Assembly (NCBI RefSeq): GCF_051622035.1
Contig: NC_135360.1
Location: 6,758,001 to 6,822,000 of the forward strand
Reading direction: 5' to 3'
Length of the DNA: 64,000 nt
Origin: Arctopsyche grandis
Taxonomy: Eukaryota > Arthropoda > Insecta > Trichoptera > Hydropsychidae
The notes beneath the pieces were generated by a model. It was not told where the DNA came from, made no database searches, and saw only the letters and a program-made list of their open reading frames with translations. Both the position numbers and the translations under genes were made by a program. Position 1 is the first letter of the stretch. Every line of letters begins with the position of its first letter. Positions 24,502-62,400 of this stretch are shown piece after piece.

Positions 24502-27192
<2,691 letters not shown>

Positions 27193-46720: not shown

Positions 46721-47492
46721 CAGTGCTTTCCAATTACTTTCATGTCACGCCCCCCTAAATCTGAAAGAATTAATTCCCGGCCCCCAAAAAAGTTTTTTTT
46801 CTAGTTAAAAGGTTTATTTGGCGGTAATTATTACAATTATAATACACATATTTATATTCAGCACAAAATTAAAGGAACTTGCTGAAAAACATTTTTTTTT
46901 AAATAAAAACTATACACACATGAAACAATTTAATGCGATAGATTAAGGTCGCATGTTTTTACATAACAAATCAATATCGGGTTCAATGTCAGAAATGCTA
47001 ACTCGCAAAGCATCTTCCAAAGTCTCCGTGGAAAGACATAACCTTTGCTGATTTTTTAATATAAGTAATGACGAAAATACTGTTTCGCATAGGTACGTAG
47101 TCACGAATGGAATAAGAGTTACCAGGGCTTCTTTTCCAATAGCAGGATATTCTTGCTGTCGCCTTAACCAAAATTCTGAAATACTTTTTTCATTAAATTC
47201 CACTTCAAGCAAATTATCTGATCTGATATCGATCAACTCTTCTTGGATTGTCCACGTAATATGATCATATTTAAAGGACTTGGCAAATGGTGTTCTTATC
47301 CAATTATTCCTTTCATCCTCATTCAAGTTTGGGAAATATTTCCTTAAATATATATGTACATTCCCTAAATATGTAATGTGGAAAAATATTCATAAATGAA
47401 TATTTGTACTTTCTATTGAATATTTTCGCGGCCCCCGGGAGAAATACTACGGCCCCCCAAGGGGTCGCGACCCCCCAATTTGGGAAACACTG
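46721..47492 (-). mobile_element. hAT transposon, internally deleted, with transposase C-terminus
   Basis: Ends CAGTGCTTTCCAA and, on the other strand, CAGTGTTTCCCAA. Perfect 8-bp target duplications GTCTAAGA lie at 46,713-46,720 and 47,493-47,500. A 127-codon minus-strand frame (47,326-46,943) encodes the end of a ZBED5/SCAND3-like hAT transposase: FWLRRQQEYPAIGKEAL, TYLCETVFSSLL and LSTETLEDALRVSISD, i.e. the hAT dimerisation region. The N-terminal BED finger and the catalytic domain are missing, so it is a non-autonomous deletion derivative. The exact target duplication suggests fairly recent insertion. Confidence 0.9.
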
Positions 47493-50345: not shown

Positions 50346-51859
50346 GAATGCTGAGCAACGCCGATCAGCGTTTTGCCGACAAGTGGGCCTGAAAAACGAC
50401 GATAGGCGTTGTATATTGAGCATGTACAAAGTAAACAAGAATACTTCCTGTTGAGCCTTTTCAGTTAGCATTGAAAAAAAATGCATTGAACACGGGTCGT
50501 GTAATCCGTTCAATTGTTTTGTCTACGTTTATAATGACAAGTTTACACCGGAGTTTCTAAATTGTGGCTTGGTCTGAGTATTCTAGATTGTTACACATAG
50601 GAACGATTAGATTGAACAGAATAGAATATTGGAAGTAGCATCACTCATTTAATATACCGGCATTTTGCCAATACAAGTCACGCGATCGATCTTTATTAAT
50701 TTTAGAGCATTACATTTTAACAAAATGAAGAAGATGGAACTAGTTTTGGAAAAAAATATTGATAGACTTCTTTGTTTATTATATATTGTTGCAAGATATA
50801 CATATGTATTAGGGAGGGACATACCTTTATAAAACACGAAATCTTCGGCTGTAGTTATATAGGATTTGTTTGTATTAATTACAATTTTTATAATTGCTTT
50901 CTATTGGATTTCTAAATAATTCTAGTTGGAAATGTTGGCGCAATTTTCAGCGTAGCGGGCTTTGAACACTGTCGATCGTTTTTATTTTTACATACCTCCT
51001 TTACGTTTCACTTACGATTACAATTCAGGAAAATTTTTCCCTCTTATCCGATCGTTTTCATACTTTGCCATATTGCTCATTTTGGTCATCAATATAAGTA
51101 AATGGATCCTCCGCCATTACGATGGTGCAAAAATATCGTGTAAAATGCGTTTGATATCTGCCCGGCGAGATAGTCATTGACGTTTATCCATCGTTTGCTT
51201 ATTAGTTTTAAACATAGATGCCGGTAGTAAAATAAAATTATTGTTTTTATTAAAAAAAAAAGTTTTTTTTTCTTTTAAGCACGAACGGAAATCAAGCATC
51301 TGATTAGACAATGATTTGTCGAAATCATTGACAAATTGGTCGACTAGAGATTTGACTTCACGATATGCATACATACATACATACGTATGTAAATCGTCAT
51401 CTGATAATTCAACAACATTTTTGCTTTGCAGGAATGCGAACTTTGAAACAATGTCATTAAATGACGTGAAACGAACCTCCAATTGCACTAAGGTTATTTC
51501 TATGTATATAGTGCCGCACAGTGGCGTAACTACTATGTAGCGGGGGTAAGCAATACTTACGGGCCCACGGAGATAGGGGGCCATAAATCGACAAAATAAC
51601 TGTTCAAATTAAAACACGTTTTGCGGGAATGCAGGCAGTGAAAAACTATTGCGGTTTTCTTGAACCTAGGAAAATTATTAATATGCTGAAAACAGATAAT
51701 CAAGACCATTGTTTGAATCTCAGAAAAAAAGTATGCAAATAGGTTGAAAAATAAGAGAGGTTTTTAAAAAATTAATCACAAAGAAATTACAGAACAATTT
51801 TAAAAATTAGTGAAAAAGGGGCGCCCCCCTATCTAATGACGAATCTAAGAGAGAGAGAG
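50346..51859. other. Intergenic; lone hAT-like end
   Basis: CAGTGGCGTAACTACTATG at 51,519 resembles a hAT terminus, and GAGATAGGGGG at 51,572 returns as CCCCCCTATCT at 51,823, but no matching second terminus is found. No coding feature is supported. Confidence 0.4.
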
Positions 51860-52183
51860 ATAGAGAACAATAGAAACCTCGGATTAGGCGAATGGGACTC
51901 AGTAAGTGCCCGGACAAAGGATACGCTGGAGTTCTCAATGACCTGGGCGAGTATATGCGTAAACAAAATACTCGCCAGGGTAGATCTTTAAGTGCCTAGA
52001 CAATAGACATAGTAATGGATCAGAGAAGCTGTGATGGGCAACTTGTCCTTGTCCAAGGACAAGTTAGATCAGAGTATTTTGGAGTGAGTGAGTGGTTACG
52101 TGTGGACCTCCTGAATCGTTGAATATATTCTGTGAATCGATTTTGGCCTTTCATTTGGATCCTGAACTCACCCCTACGCAACA
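51860..52183 (-). mobile_element. Relic LTR related to the one at 29.1 kb
   Basis: Read on the minus strand it starts TGTTGCGTAGGGGTGAGTTC and continues AGGATCCAA, the same order as the 29,132-29,477 LTR (TGTTGCGTACGGGTGGGT...AGGATCCAA). The far boundary is approximate and no internal retroelement part adjoins. Old and decayed. Confidence 0.45.
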
Positions 52184-52880
52184 ATATGTAGTTTTATTTT
52201 ATTTTCAGTTTAATTTTCGCTTCCAAGATAGAACCTACATTTAATCGAAAAATGGATTTTGTCAAATGTTGGGACTCAAATCTAAGTATTAAGAACACAA
52301 AAGCAAATGTCATATATTTTATTTATAATTTGACTTCATTATATATATATATATAATTATATTAGATACATAGTGATAAATCACACACTGAATATTATGC
52401 TAAATATAATATTACAAAACGAAGATTTGATATTAAAATATCCATGAGGTTATTTTATTTTTATTTTCATAAAGGCGTTGAAAACTCGTCGAAAATTCAA
52501 AATGGAATGACGAAATATTTTAAAAAGTACAATTTGCACATACATCATCACACCTTGGCCAATTTAAAATTGTAATAAAATATACATAACATTGCAGATG
52601 GATCAACAATCGATACTTTCACACGTAAACATATTCATATTCGATATAAACATATAGAGTAAACTAACAAAATTAACAAACGTACTTATATAAAAGGCCA
52701 CACCTAATCAATAAGAGTACGCTCTCGATTCAAATACATTAAAATCATGAATGAAAAAGTTTTGCATCGGTGGCATTGTGAAATATGCGGCCTATGCAGA
52801 TTTTATCGACACATATAATATAATAATTAACATCAGAAAATTGGAATACAAGTCATTAACAAATTTAACAAGCTATAGTA
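52184..52880 (-). other. Probable 3' UTR region of AP-3 sigma
   Basis: AT-rich DNA following the last stop at 52,881. Minus-strand AATAAA motifs occur near 52,450 and 52,320. I saw none between 53,507 and 52,881, so the mRNA most likely extends through the downstream frame. Confidence 0.45.
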
Positions 52881-53507
52881 TCATTTGGAATATCGTTTAA
52901 TGTCGCTCTTCTTTTGACTGTCGGATATGCTGGGGTACATGAGGGTCGGTCTGCACAGGCTGACGAGGTCCGAAGACGTCGACGATTTCTTCTTCACCTT
53001 TTCGCTCTTCTTCTTCCGCCTGTCGCACGTGTTGTCATCCGAGTCCGGCTTCGAACCAAAGTTGCTGGTTAAATGTATAACGCTCTCGGCATACTCGTAA
53101 TCCATAGACTGCTCGGAAATGTCTTGATAGCCCGAGAGCGTTCCGAGCGATTTTCCGCTGTTGAACGAGAAATCTTTTCCTTGATTTTTCTGATAACTAC
53201 CGCTACTAGTGCTGCTGGTGATGCTGCGATTACTTTTCGTTTTGGAATCGTTCGGGATTTGATATTCCAACGAAGGCGGGGATGATATGTGAGGTAAGAT
53301 TTTCGGCGCGAAGGGCTTTTGCACATCGTGAAGATCTTCATAATCCTGATGAGACCCACCCGTATATAGCGAATTGATTACATTTGCTGCCATGGTGATC
53401 GGTGTGGACAGAAAACCCGATGCGCCGGTTTGACTTTGGGATTTTTCGAGAGCGAATTCCGGATTAAAATAGGTTCGATGATCGGCTACTGGTTGACCGG
53501 TGATTGG
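52881..53507 (-). CDS. In-frame 208-codon extension after the AP-3 sigma stop (readthrough candidate)
   Basis: Immediately after the TGA at 53,510-53,508 the same frame continues PITGQPVADHRTYFNPEFAL and stays open for 208 codons to TGA at 52,883-52,881. Codon use is clearly coding-like: many G/C third positions in an AT-rich neighbourhood, no other stop. It contains serine runs (SITSSTSSGS) and a lysine-rich stretch (DRRKKKSEKVKKKSS) and ends KKSDIKRYSK. The first Met is at codon 39, but the 38 codons before it look equally coding. The exon-6 acceptor is directly before GATTTGAAATTC, and I see no alternative phase-0 acceptor that would bypass the TGA. I do not recognise the extension's domain; it looks disordered. 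Alternatives: unseen alternative splicing, or a separate downstream ORF. Confidence 0.7.
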   Translation of the reverse strand, partial: PITGQPVADHRTYFNPEFALEKSQSQTGASGFLSTPITMAANVINSLYTGGSHQDYEDLHDVQKPFAPKILPHISSPPSLEYQIPNDSKTKSNRSITSSTSSGSYQKNQGKDFSFNSGKSLGTLSGYQDISEQSMDYEYAESVIHLTSNFGSKPDSDDNTCDRRKKKSEKVKKKSSTSSDLVSLCRPTLMYPSISDSQKKSDIKRYSK

Positions 53508-56500
53508 TCAGAATTTCAAATCCTAAAAATTGACAAATCAATCAAACATATGTACAAAGATAATCAAAAAAATACGAATTTAATTGAATGTATAATACTT
53601 TGATTGCTTGTGGAAGATCTGGAAGTTTCATATCTCTAATTTGCTGTGGAAGATTCATACTTTTAACGGCAGAGACGGCTCTAGCTGGAGCCGCTGATAG
53701 GCCAGCCTATATGAAAAAGGAACAAAATCGAGTTTAAGTAAATCATATATGTACATATGTATACGTTTTAAGCGATGCAATGTGTGACCTCTTGCTTTTG
53801 TAATTTGTTCTGTTCTTCGATGCGCGCTAAAATATCAGCCATGTTGGTCTGCAACACCATGCCTCCCATAACGAGTTCGCTGAGGATGTGGTGGACGCAG
53901 TCGGCATGAAATATCAAGTCAAGCTCGCACACATTCTCGAAACATTTATCTAAAGTTTCTACGAATACCTGTAATTAGAAACAAAAGATTATAGTACAAT
54001 GGAAAATGCTAATCAACTTTTATATTCCATTCTCCTATCACAAACTACTTTCATCAATATGATATGGTAGTAAAATTCTAAGCCCACTATGCAATTAAAG
54101 ATCTATTCAAACTGGCACAGCAAAGACCGGTAACTGCACTTAATCGTTTTCCCGCGGCCGTCCTCTATGGAAGCTTTGGGCGACAAGTCTGTAGCGCAGC
54201 TGTCTTCCATAGAATTTCTGAACTTTGCACGGGATTTTGAGGCTTATATGCGCCTATTTCAACTGTTTTAAGGTTCAAAATTGGTTGAATATATTACCGA
54301 GAGTTGAATGCCATCTATTCAATTTGCTTAAAATGAATATATACCAATCAAAAATTAGTTTTTTGTGGAACCATACTGAAACCTCGTTTATGTAACGTCA
54401 CATCTTTATTTGACAATTAATCCAAAACTACGAGATATATTATGTATTTTATTGTATAAAATAATACTTTATGTGTTAATTAACATATCTGGTTACTTGA
54501 GTAAATATTAAAATCTGTATTTAAGGACGAAAACTCGATTGCCAAATTCGCGAAAAAGGTGCCGCATACAGGGCTTGTTCGCTATATTTATTGCCACGGG
54601 CAAAGGGTTAATCAATATGATATGCTAGTAAAATTCTAAGCCCACTATGCAATTACTATTCAAACTGGCACAGCAAAGACCGGTAACTGCACTTACACAA
54701 CAATACGAAAAGTATTCTTTGATACATTCATATCTTCCGTAATGTGTATGCATATGCTGTAGACGTACTAGCAGTAACTGACAAAACCCATTCATGGTGT
54801 TGAATTGAAGATGGTGGATGATTTTAGCGATTTGGGAGTCTTGTTCTCGAGGAATTTTTGTTTTAAACAACGCATTGATAATTAGCCAGCAGCATGGCTT
54901 GCTGGTTGTGTTGATACTAATCCCGTGAGCTGAAAATAATGTATTCCGAGTATAATCTTTAATGTTGCTGGTCAGACTTGGATATTTGTGACTCCAAATC
55001 GATCATTTCCCATCAGAGTTTGCCAATTTATCTGATTTCATTGTTGAAACGGTTCCTCACATAAAATTGGCAAACAATATCGTACCCACTATGTCACCAC
55101 TATTTGAATATGATTTCAAAAATTTATTATCTATGACATACATATGTCTGGCTAATTTTCTTATATTTGTATTACGTTTATGTGTCTGGTCACATTGACT
55201 TTTGTAATGTCACTGTGGCTAATATGTAAATAAATAAATTTGTTTATGGGCTTGTAAAATTCTAGGATTCTTACTAAGAGTTAGTAAACCTTTCCAGAGT
55301 TTGTTAGTGCTTAAAATTCTTTAATTCTCTAGTATGCAGCATCCAAGAATTTTCTTCCATTATATGTATGAAGTCCAACTCATACGACTCATTCATTGAA
55401 GATTGAAAGAATCCAAAAACGTTTTCTCAGATATCTTTATATGAAATTGTATGATTAATATCCCTGGCTTTTCTATTCTCAGTGCTTTTCTACTAGGGGC
55501 GTTAGGCTTTAACTCATTGGAGCCACGTCGTGTTACTTTTCTGGGTAAGCATTTTTTTAAGCTATTAATTTAAGCAGGAAGGCGCATTAGGGTTACCTGT
55601 TAGGCCTTCCTGGTATAAATTAAAAATAAATAAATAAAGTGTGGAATTTATAAGAATATTTCATACCTGTATTAAATCTAGGATTCCTAGTTCACTCTCG
55701 GACGAATCCACACAAAAGACAAAATACAACGTAGCATAATGTCTATATATTAATTTATAGTCCGATCCTCCAATAAGGCTGGAAATATATAATTAAAGAA
55801 AATATAAATATAAAGTCTTGTATATTATTTTTTTTTTGCTTTATTTCCAATGACACTTGTTTTACCTTCCTCCTTCTAAAAAATTGCAAACGTTATCATC
55901 CCGCTTGGAGACTAGTTGGAACGTCTCTTTAATGATTTGTTGTTGCATATCTTCATTCTGGAAAGCAAAAATAAATGATTCCGATCATAAAAAATCAAAA
56001 TTAAGACCATATTGTGTAATTGAAAGTTTAATAAAAAAAATATATATATACATTATAAGCAATACGCTTACGAATTAAGAGCATAAAACGATAATTTAAA
56101 TAAATTAAAAAATTCCGAATTTAAAGGTTATACTTGAATTTCAAAATTGCAGGCGAAGATTATCATAATTCAATTAGAGATTGCACGTAGAAAATGCAGA
56201 GCAGCGATTACAACTGCACTCGAATGATTTGTCATCAATTACTATATAAACTTTGATAACAATATGTTTGGTATTTAATGCTTCGATAACTAAGCATATG
56301 TTCATCCAGCCGTATAATTCAATGCTTTCAAATAGTACAAATATATATATGGTGGATTTTATGGGTTAGGTTAAGGCCAAAAAATAAACCCGCGTAAAAA
56401 AATACCATATAAAATAATCGATAGCTATACGATGACAGATTGTGATTGGAGCATATTGTAAATTTTTACTTACGAAATATTGATAAAATTTAGAGAGTCT

Positions 56501-56542
56501 AGGTTTGCCATGATTGTTGAATACTAGGATAGCTTTTATCAT
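53508..56542 (-). CDS. AP-3 complex subunit sigma (191 aa)
   Basis: Six exons, GT-AG, in frame: 56542-56474, 55957-55866, 55778-55667, 53968-53789, 53706-53599 and 53522-53508. The product begins MIKAILVFNNHGKPRLSKFY and contains LEGGSLIGGSDYKLIYRHYA, FVFCVDSSESELGILDLIQ, VFVETLDKCFENVCELDLIF and MGGMVLQTNMADILARIEEQ, the hallmark blocks of the sigma3 small adaptin. It ends LPQAIKDLKF. The length equals that of known sigma3 proteins. AP-3 is a heterotetramer that sorts membrane cargo from endosomes or trans-Golgi to lysosomes and related organelles; sigma packs against delta. The protein is called orange in Drosophila; I leave the symbol empty because orthology was not tested. Intron 3 (1.7 kb) contains a SINE and other repeats. 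The stop is followed by a long open frame in phase (see the extension). Confidence 0.96.
54059..54695. repeat. ~85-bp direct repeat in AP-3 sigma intron 3
   Basis: A segment starting ATCAATATGATATG and ending CCGGTAACTGCACTTA occurs at 54,055-54,144 and again at 54,612-54,695, with one 6-base gap and one substitution. The 470 bases between differ. This suggests a duplication or two copies of a repeat; related sequence also occurs near 14.8 kb. Confidence 0.6.
54884..55140 (+). repeat. SINE copy in AP-3 sigma intron 3
   Basis: Head AGCCAGCAGCATGGCTTGC is followed by a body with GGTCAGACTTGGATATTTGTG and ATTGTTGAAACGGTTCC, ending after TTTGAATATGATTTCAAA. Plus strand, antisense to the gene. 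Confidence 0.75.
55574..55613 (+). repeat. Isolated SINE/LINE 3' hairpin tail
   Basis: CAGGAAGGCGCATTAGGGTT...AGGCCTTCCTGG followed by AT-rich (AAAT)n. Only the tail is present, consistent with extreme 5' truncation of a LINE or SINE insertion. Confidence 0.65.
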
Positions 56543-58973: not shown

Positions 58974-59438
58974 CTTAAACATGACATCCGTGAATTGAGT
59001 AAAATTTCATACAAAAATATATCAATCTTTTTTTCATGAAATACATATACAAAATTTGCCTTCTTTTACTAGTCTCTTCCTATTTTCAAATTGTTAATAA
59101 GTAAATAAAATCTTACATTAAAAAATCTAGCAAGTAAAAGCCGCTAAATCATATGTGTAATAATTGTAATAATAAATGAAACGTAAAGGAGGTTTGTAAA
59201 AATACATGTGTATAAATAAAAATGATTCTCTTCAAAATTAAGGAAATAAACTTCCTACGATCGAATGTGATGTAAATGAATAAGACACCGTATTACAACT
59301 TATTTGCAATCTTCGCCGGGATTCCAAACGAGAAGGTCGTGTGCATTCATCTACTGGTTCATGGCTATCAACAAATAACTCCACTATCTTCCGGTTATCG
59401 ACAAATAAATCCGACGAAGCAAGCTAGAATACCACAAA
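58974..59438 (+). other. 5' flank of the Methuselah-like gene
   Basis: AT-rich until about 59,300, then less so. A frame overlapping the gene start in another phase is a shadow. No clear TATA box or initiator can be assigned. Confidence 0.4.
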
Positions 59439-62400
59439 ATGTGTCACCAGCAGAAGCTGCAATTAATGTGCTTTTTCTTTGTACTCGCATATTGTCAGTG
59501 CGTCGTCTTAAACAAGTGTTGCAACGATAATGAGGGTATCATCAAGTACCGAACCCCAGAATCTGATAACATAAATTATGAATGCACAGAAGTATTCACC
59601 AACAACGATACAACGCTCCTAAGCAGGACTTTGCATCCATTGCTGAGAGGAAGAGATGATCAAGATTTTTCACACGGGTTTCCTGAGAGATGCAGCAACG
59701 AATCTTACATCGAATTTATCTTTAACCAAAATAAACCGTTACCAGGTGAGTATTGTATCGACAAAGTCCTGGCTGAAGATAGTGAAAATGGATCTGTTGT
59801 GGGTGATGGATCTGTTGTGGTTTTAAAGTGTCCTGGCGAGAATTCCGAATCGAGTGGTGTAAATTTCAATATGACTACAGTAAATAAATGCTGTTTGGAT
59901 AATATGGTCTACAATACTGAGAAGCGCGTGTGTGTCAATAGACCAGAAGCGATTGACCAAAAGGGAGTGTTCTGGGAGTTCGTTGAGGGGGAAAGTTCGT
60001 TATTGAACATCGGATATGGTTTATCAAATTGTACCGCACCAAAAGTGGTTTACGAATACATGAGAGATTATTATAAAATCGAATTGAACCAGAATTTTTT
60101 AAAAGTGATTCGACCGGAGAAATCTTATAACTTGAAGCCAGGAACTTACTGCTTGGATGAGACGATGGACGGTTCACTTGTGGCCAGAGGATGCAGAGAT
60201 GAATGTGATGGTGGACCTTGTGTGTCCAAGTGTTGTCCACATGGACACATTTATGCATTCAGTACCCAAGACTGCTCTGATAATGTAATGTGCGTTCCCA
60301 GAATGGATTTAGGAAATCACATAGAATTCTTCAATGTTTCCGACAAGGAATCACCAGTTCGAGTTTCTACTCCGGGTATGTACATAACTTTGATCTTTTA
60401 TTTTTATCAATTTCTTGCTGATTTCCTAATGTTTGTAATGTGAAATATCACATGTGTTTTAGTATATTTTTTTTATCTATTTGTGTCCGAAATGTCAATA
60501 AATGATGTTTTCCGATCATTATAAAATTCAACATCGTTTTTTTTTTAATGTGTATTTAGATAAAAATCTATTCAGAAAATTAATCTATATTTTAACTAAG
60601 TGGGTGTCCCAACACAAGCACGCAGACATAAGTGCGTCAATATTTAAATTAAGTAAACGAAGATTTATTTTAAAGTATTTTGAAATTAAAAAATACCCAT
60701 TATGTGAAAAACATCAGAAACATTATTTTAGTCAACATTAAAATCGTTTAGTAAGTATTTTATTTAATTATTTCTTAATTTTACATTATATACGTACAAT
60801 GGTGCATCTACCCCCAAGTTTGCAATGTTGACAACTAAAAACGACAGTCGTTGTAAATTTTGTCGATGAACAATCCTGCGAAATAAAATTAAAAATAAGC
60901 TTATTTTTTCAATGTATTGTTTTGCGCGCTTTTGTCCGGGTACATTTCTATGTGCTCAAATCCTGCGCGCTTATGTCGGCGCGGGTCTGTTATTTTTGAG
61001 GGGGGAGAGGCGCTATTGTACGCCAAATTTGTTGTTTCTAAATTGATAACTGTAGATATGCAAACAAAACACTGATTTGATATTGTATTTTGTCGATAGA
61101 TACTGTGGGTATACGATATTCAACACTGTGTCCCAACAATAAATATATAAAGGATGATCCGAAATATTTAGATGTCGTCAGTGGAGATCTAATATTCCCT
61201 GGAAAGGTCAATGAAGGCTATTGTATTGAAACATTCGAAAACAGATGTTTATCTAAAGAAAAAGTGCAAAACCTTGTATTTGTTTGTTTCTATCCAGCCA
61301 CAGAATTCCTCCTGCCGCGAGCGAAAATCGCCAAATTGAGCATAGTGAGTTTTTAACAGTTATATTATATGTATGTAATAATTTATTTTCCTACGGATTC
61401 TATTTTTAACCACTAAACATGACATCATTGATTTTACGCATCACATCAACACATTAATAAATATTATGAACAGTTATGACGAGGTAATCGAACAAAATTT
61501 GGCACAGAGTTTGTTTTTTTTTTTTCACCTTTCCTATTTAGTAAGTCAACTTTGCTATTCATATAATACACGTGTTTTCATTTATGTAATAACCAGAGAT
61601 CAGGTTCAAAGTTGTTTTTATTAATAAAAATAGTTCACTATCGTCAATTACTATTGCCCCACAAAGCAAGAGAGCAAAAAATGGTTAAAAATAGTAATTG
61701 ACAATAGTGAACCATTCTGTGTGCATTAAAGCTACCTTGACGCCGATCCATGGTAATAATAATCAGACTTCAGCGGCCAGGATTCTTTTACACACAAAAA
61801 ATGGTTCCCTATTGTCAACCTTTTTTTGCTCTCTTGCTTTGAAATACAATAGTAATTGACAATAGTGAACCACTGTTTGTGGGTAAAAGCTCCTGGCCGC
61901 CTAAGTCTGGTAATAATTAAGCTAGGAGTCGGGGCACCATTGTTAATCTATCAAAACAAAATATTTTCTTAAAAGGTTTTTTGTTTTATTGCTTTGAACA
62001 ATTTTGCCTATTGTTATTTGCGGCACGTTGACAAAGCCACGCACGACAATGCCGCGCCAACATACCCGCCCAGTACAAAAGTAAATTACCATATATTATA
62101 TTTTATATCCAATCAAAATTAAAACAAATTTACTTATAATTAAATATGTTTTAATTTTGGTTAATTAATGGTTGCAACATTAACAGAAGAAAACTTTTGC
62201 AAGAGCCTAATTGGGGACATTTTAATATTCACAAAATTATAAAATAGTATTTATTTCTTTAAATACTATTTTAAAGCAATGATTGCAATGAAAATATTCA
62301 ACGGAATCAAAGATGCCGAACTGGATATAAGGGAATATATAAAATAAATGCCGACAAAAGGCAAACATTTTACTTTCGCGAGATCATCATGAAGCTTCAT

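Follow-up and report, generated by a model that had tools for sequence, protein, structure and literature searches.

Does translation of AP-3 sigma in Arctopsyche grandis stop at the end of the conserved protein, or do some ribosomes pass the stop codon and decode the long open frame that follows it? The locus lies on the minus strand of the window, that is, the whole stretch of 64,000 nucleotides analysed here. The answer depends on the age and context of the first stop codon, on the coding character of the downstream frame and on whether other routes could link this frame to protein synthesis.

The AP-3 sigma gene ends at an old stop codon

AP-3 sigma (AP3S1/AP3S2; orange in Drosophila) is encoded by six coding exons that specify 191 amino acids with DLKF at the C-terminus:

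56474..56542, minus strand: exon 1, coding part (MIKAILVFNNHGKPRLSKFYQYF); gene model by homology
55866..55957, minus strand: exon 2; gene model by homology
55667..55778, minus strand: exon 3; gene model by homology
53789..53968, minus strand: exon 4, in which the clathrin-adaptor small-chain domain ends; PF01217
53599..53706, minus strand: exon 5 (AGLSAAP...LPQAIK), phase 0 at its end; gene model by homology
53508..53522, minus strand: exon 6 up to the normal end, DLKF-TGA, then C; gene model by homology

The assignment rests on homology of both the small-chain domain and the C-terminal segment. In a Pfam scan, the frame 53768-53974 around exon 4 matches PF01217 (E 2.1e-17), and the residues encoded by exons 2-6 align with human AP3S1 chains in the PDB (E 1.3e-81, human residues 25-186 of 193). 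The body is thus nearly as long here as in human AP3S1 (191 versus 193 amino acids), and its end coincides with the human end, so that the TGA at 53510-53508 is the old stop; the same coincidence rules out a recent nonsense mutation or an assembly error at this codon. The human AP3S1 chain in the PDB has no tail, in contrast to the locus described here, where the frame continues.

The next base after the TGA is C, in agreement with the TGA-C context given by an earlier, sequence-only reading of this DNA, and this is a leaky context of the kind associated with functional readthrough in insects. TGA-C occurs at 2 of the 39 control stops taken from other loci of the same genome. The sequence directly after the stop, CCAATC, fits neither CUAG nor the CAR-YYA motif. 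Of three contexts tested in yeast, TGA-C is described as the leakiest in PMC3609751, where a single TGA-C test case with no such motif noted for it gave only 2.9%; C after the stop is also among the cues used for mosquito candidates in the available text of PMC5100048. No stable RNA structure is predicted 3' of the stop (z +0.87, with 157 of 200 shuffles equally stable), and stable structures at this position are predicted in just 9-10% of the mosquito and fly candidates (PMC5100048, available text). A search of 50500-54000 for a SECIS element returned none, the only Rfam hit with E up to 1 being of another kind, and selenocysteine insertion at the TGA was rejected on this ground.

A 208-codon frame follows in the same exon

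The sequence-only reading had described an AP-3 sigma frame ending at LPQAIKDLKF-TGA and continuing in the same phase for 208 codons, and exon 6 indeed has this arrangement. More specifically, the open codons occupy 53507-52884 (minus strand), in the same exon and frame as the end of the body, and can be divided as follows:

53394..53507, minus strand: extension, first 38 codons up to the Met; GC 0.50
52881..53393, minus strand: remaining 170 codons of the extension, ATG (ACCATGG) to second stop, TGA at 52883-52881; coding-like codon score overall
52460..52465, minus strand: first AATAAA past the second stop, a possible poly(A) signal; sequence motif

The locus therefore has the contiguous, in-frame second reading frame typical of insect readthrough genes, the extent of the mRNA being judged from poly(A) signals only. 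No AATAAA lies between the two stops, the first one being found at 52465 (minus strand), past the second stop; an ATTAAA is present at 52901, some 20 bases short of the second stop.

Such an opening would rarely arise by chance: the probability is about 6e-6 at the stop-codon frequency of the window and 2.6e-5 at the composition of the tail itself. The longest in-frame opening after the 39 control stops, some of which are possibly intronic, is 126 codons, versus 208 in the tail. Within the window, the tail is the seventh longest stop-to-stop frame. The six longer ones span 216-659 codons and include reverse transcriptase and chitin-binding exon frames; the three of them submitted to a Pfam scan (those of 659 and 344 codons and one of 245) held domains or matched them weakly.

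Several of these neighbouring frames deserve a brief description. The 659-codon frame (24517-26493, minus strand) matches RVT_1 (E 5.5e-34), probably belongs to a LINE-type element and starts within a TA microsatellite. The 344-codon, Cys-rich open reading frame at 59409-60440 (plus strand) resembles a Methuselah N-terminus weakly (E 0.0053, under the Pfam cut-off). A run of exon-like open reading frames extends over 21608-43884 (minus strand), many of them with a Cys-rich, peritrophin-A-like end and Thr/Pro/Glu-rich repeats; the one that was tested matches CBM_14 (E 9.7e-8). Part of the dimerisation region of a hAT transposase lies at 46946-47389 (minus strand; E 1.6e-5).

The extension as a whole resembles coding sequence

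The codon model used to score the tail was built from 40 exon stretches of the same genome, 12,005 codons in all, belonging to kinase and RRM genes; the noncoding samples set against it were flanks of these genes and stretches of the present window, some exons possibly being included. The whole tail scores +55.7 bits in favour of coding, a value reached by 0.8% of the noncoding samples and by 1.4% of the GC-matched ones. Synonymous choice alone contributes +26.5 bits, which is equalled by 0.5% of the noncoding samples and by 2.3% of the GC-matched ones. Note that stop-filled frames over the same bases are also positive (+33.1 for frame 2 of the same strand, with 8 stops, and +48.6 for the opposite strand, with 17 stops), indicating that part of the tail score reflects base composition. 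The coding-like composition noticed by the sequence-only reading is borne out for the tail taken as a whole, with a third-position GC content of 0.56 in a window of GC 0.345, and is partly a matter of composition.

GC content rises past the TGA and drops again near the second stop. The two 60-base bins that precede the tail and include intron 5 have GC of 0.27 and 0.23, and the two bins directly past the TGA have 0.48 and 0.52; GC ranges from 0.38 to 0.55 over the whole tail and falls back to 0.28 in the bin containing the last eight tail codons and the second stop. Further along the tail frame, the six bins covering 52907-52548, the first of which still contains these eight codons, score between -7.7 and -18.1 bits per 20 codons, with GC between 0.25 and 0.35.

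The encoded protein segment is Ser/Lys-rich (18% Ser) and, by the charge-hydropathy rule, falls as a whole just on the disordered side. Neither Pfam, above its cut-off, nor the PDB, up to E 1, yielded a match to it. The best Pfam match, SARAF (residues 67-177, E 0.0042, 17.2 bits versus a cut-off of 30.8), was taken as compositional and rejected as a tail domain. A second copy or a repeat as the source of the tail was likewise discarded, the single match in the 475.7-Mb genome being the tail itself. As expected, no relatives of the tail or body were confirmed in viral contigs, nor relatives of the body in prokaryote genomes. Finally, the tail contains three Tyr-x-x-hydrophobic motifs (YEDL, YQDI and YPSI); since we estimate that about two such motifs would be expected by chance in a segment of this composition, they do not constitute evidence.

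The segment before the first methionine and a possible second cistron

Readthrough and a second cistron differ in whether the 38 codons that precede the first Met of the extension are coding. The sequence-only reading held that they look as coding as the rest, a statement that our scores neither confirm nor contradict. These codons score +5.9 bits, and 24% of the stop-free noncoding samples do equally well; on synonymous choice they score -1.4, a value reached by 32% of the stop-free samples. The test has low power, however, since exon 5, which is undoubtedly coding, scores -9.1 on synonymous choice. By the charge-hydropathy rule, this segment falls on the ordered side.

The same segment bears on the possibility that the downstream frame is a second cistron, in which a 170-residue protein would start at the ATG at 53393, on the AP-3 sigma mRNA or from a separate internal promoter, its agreement in frame with AP-3 sigma being fortuitous. 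Codon 39 of the tail is the first ATG to follow the stop, whatever the frame; it lies in the tail frame and in a strong context (ACCATGG), which keeps this explanation a live, if unlikely, rival. The sequence from this Met onward also scores clearly (+49.9 bits), whereas the segment before it is statistically undecided. Nevertheless, the frames would have to agree by chance (1 in 3) and 38 codons would have to be open by chance (11-15%; openings of at least 38 codons follow 5 of the 39 control stops). In addition, GC has already risen to 0.50 before the Met, similar to the remaining tail, which is uncommon though not rare in noncoding DNA: GC of at least 0.50 is found at 4 of the 39 controls, in 4.5% of the noncoding samples drawn from the window only and in 9.7% of all of them. 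Low scores are not confined to the segment before the Met, as the 38 codons that start with it reach only +0.5. Reinitiation after an open reading frame of 191 codons is normally inefficient, a further point against a second cistron.

Possible splice routes around the stop codon

Alternative splicing could link AP-3 sigma to the tail while removing the TGA. Splice sites were scored with a generic matrix, by which the two AP-3 sigma acceptors scored reach 2.6 (53522) and 5.9. Between the TGA and the Met there are three AGs, whose scores run from -7.7 to -1.3, the best standing near the 75th percentile of the AGs in the window. The sequence-only reading overstated the case in denying any phase-0 acceptor that would skip the TGA, given that a weak one is present at 53345 (0.2). 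Altogether, three routes keep the frame: from the exon 5 donor at 53599 to 53345 in phase 0; from a donor at 53661 (4.3) to an acceptor at 53488 (-1.3) in phase 1; and, in phase 2, from exon 2 to an AG at 53157, which suits the donor of exon 2, unlike those of exons 3, 4 and 5. The unused donor at 53661 (AAA/GTATGA) outscores the used one at 53599 (AAA/GTATTA, 0.3), and the AG at 53157, with a score of 2.6, equals the used acceptor at 53522. The donor at 53661 stands 62 bases upstream of that at 53599 on the minus strand. On the other hand, the acceptors at 53345 and 53488 are poor compared with those of AP-3 sigma; if 53345 or 53157 were used, the open frame would stay unexplained over its first 54 or about 116 codons, respectively; and splicing to 53157 would eliminate exons 3-5. 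We regard splicing as unlikely and somewhat less probable than a second cistron; the poor acceptors weigh against it.

Readthrough compared with the remaining explanations

The tail might also be an untranslated remnant or a chance opening in a 3' untranslated region of odd composition, or else the stop might be altered by A-to-I editing. The single genomic copy, the lack of a known domain and the positive scores of the stop-filled frames would fit a remnant or a chance opening, but 208 open codons together with a synonymous signal are hard to reconcile with the absence of present or recent selection; as to editing, no stable fold that would favour it is predicted around the stop. We consider this group of explanations improbable, slightly below splicing in our ranking.

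Translation of the AP-3 sigma tail by readthrough is in our opinion the best single explanation, as a candidate to which we give a rough probability of 0.6; this figure and the weights given to its rivals are judgements, not computed odds. It is favoured by the in-frame contiguity of the two reading frames, the step in composition after the TGA and the TGA-C context, and the old position of the stop, the location of the tail before the first AATAAA and the poor splice routes speak for it as well. The proposal of readthrough made by the sequence-only reading is partly supported: the segment before the Met is undecided and a strong ATG follows the stop, two features that favour the second cistron. 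From the genomic sequence we infer that the tail lies within the mRNA and that it would be translated, by readthrough, along with any function it may have. Most likely, the AP-3 sigma mRNA would carry a leaky UGA-C at which the majority of ribosomes terminate after 191 residues. A minority would insert an amino acid at the UGA through near-cognate decoding and translate 208 codons more; the resulting AP-3 sigma would have 400 residues and end in a Ser/Lys-rich tail that is probably disordered for the most part. A role of this tail in cargo, membrane or kinase interactions, as put forward in the sequence-only reading, is speculation. Even more conjectural, and in our eyes very improbable, is a conserved, regulated isoform whose disordered tail, with its YxxΦ-type motifs and basic clusters, would act in cis or in trans on the AP-3 cargo site.

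Relation to known insect readthrough genes

Readthrough candidates have been catalogued in large numbers in insects, with 333 in Drosophila and 353 in Anopheles according to the available text of PMC5100048, where the criterion is conservation beyond the stop; as a rule, a second cistron is favoured there if the sequence from the stop to a conserved ATG lacks conservation, and splicing where a fair acceptor accounts for the signal. FlyBase lists 328 readthrough genes, with extensions of 4 to more than 1000 amino acids, most of them of 8-300; many of the longer ones have low-complexity stretches and a disordered character (PMC4528330, available text, where kel, oaf, Syn and hdc are named). Exons of headcase were located in the A. 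grandis genome.

The AP-3 sigma locus resembles these Drosophila and Anopheles genes in its second in-frame reading frame, its TGA-C and its long extension of disordered type. It differs from them in the nature of the evidence, which is comparative or comes from footprints or peptides in their case and from the sequence of a single genome here. Dicistronic fly transcripts, as described in the available text of PMC4528330, are similar in that there are two reading frames per presumed mRNA and a good second start context; here, however, the second frame is in phase with the first and open back to its stop. The term 'AP-3' is absent from the main text of PMC5100048, PMC4528330, PMC4999894, PMC3609751 and PMC3840789.

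As the class is established in insects, AP-3 sigma would be an added member and a testable case in trafficking rather than a new mechanism. If readthrough does occur, leaky termination makes a core subunit of a trafficking adaptor more than twice as long, and annotation that stops at the first stop codon misses the AP-3 sigma tail. Should the very improbable regulated isoform prove real, translation termination would tune sorting to lysosome-related organelles.
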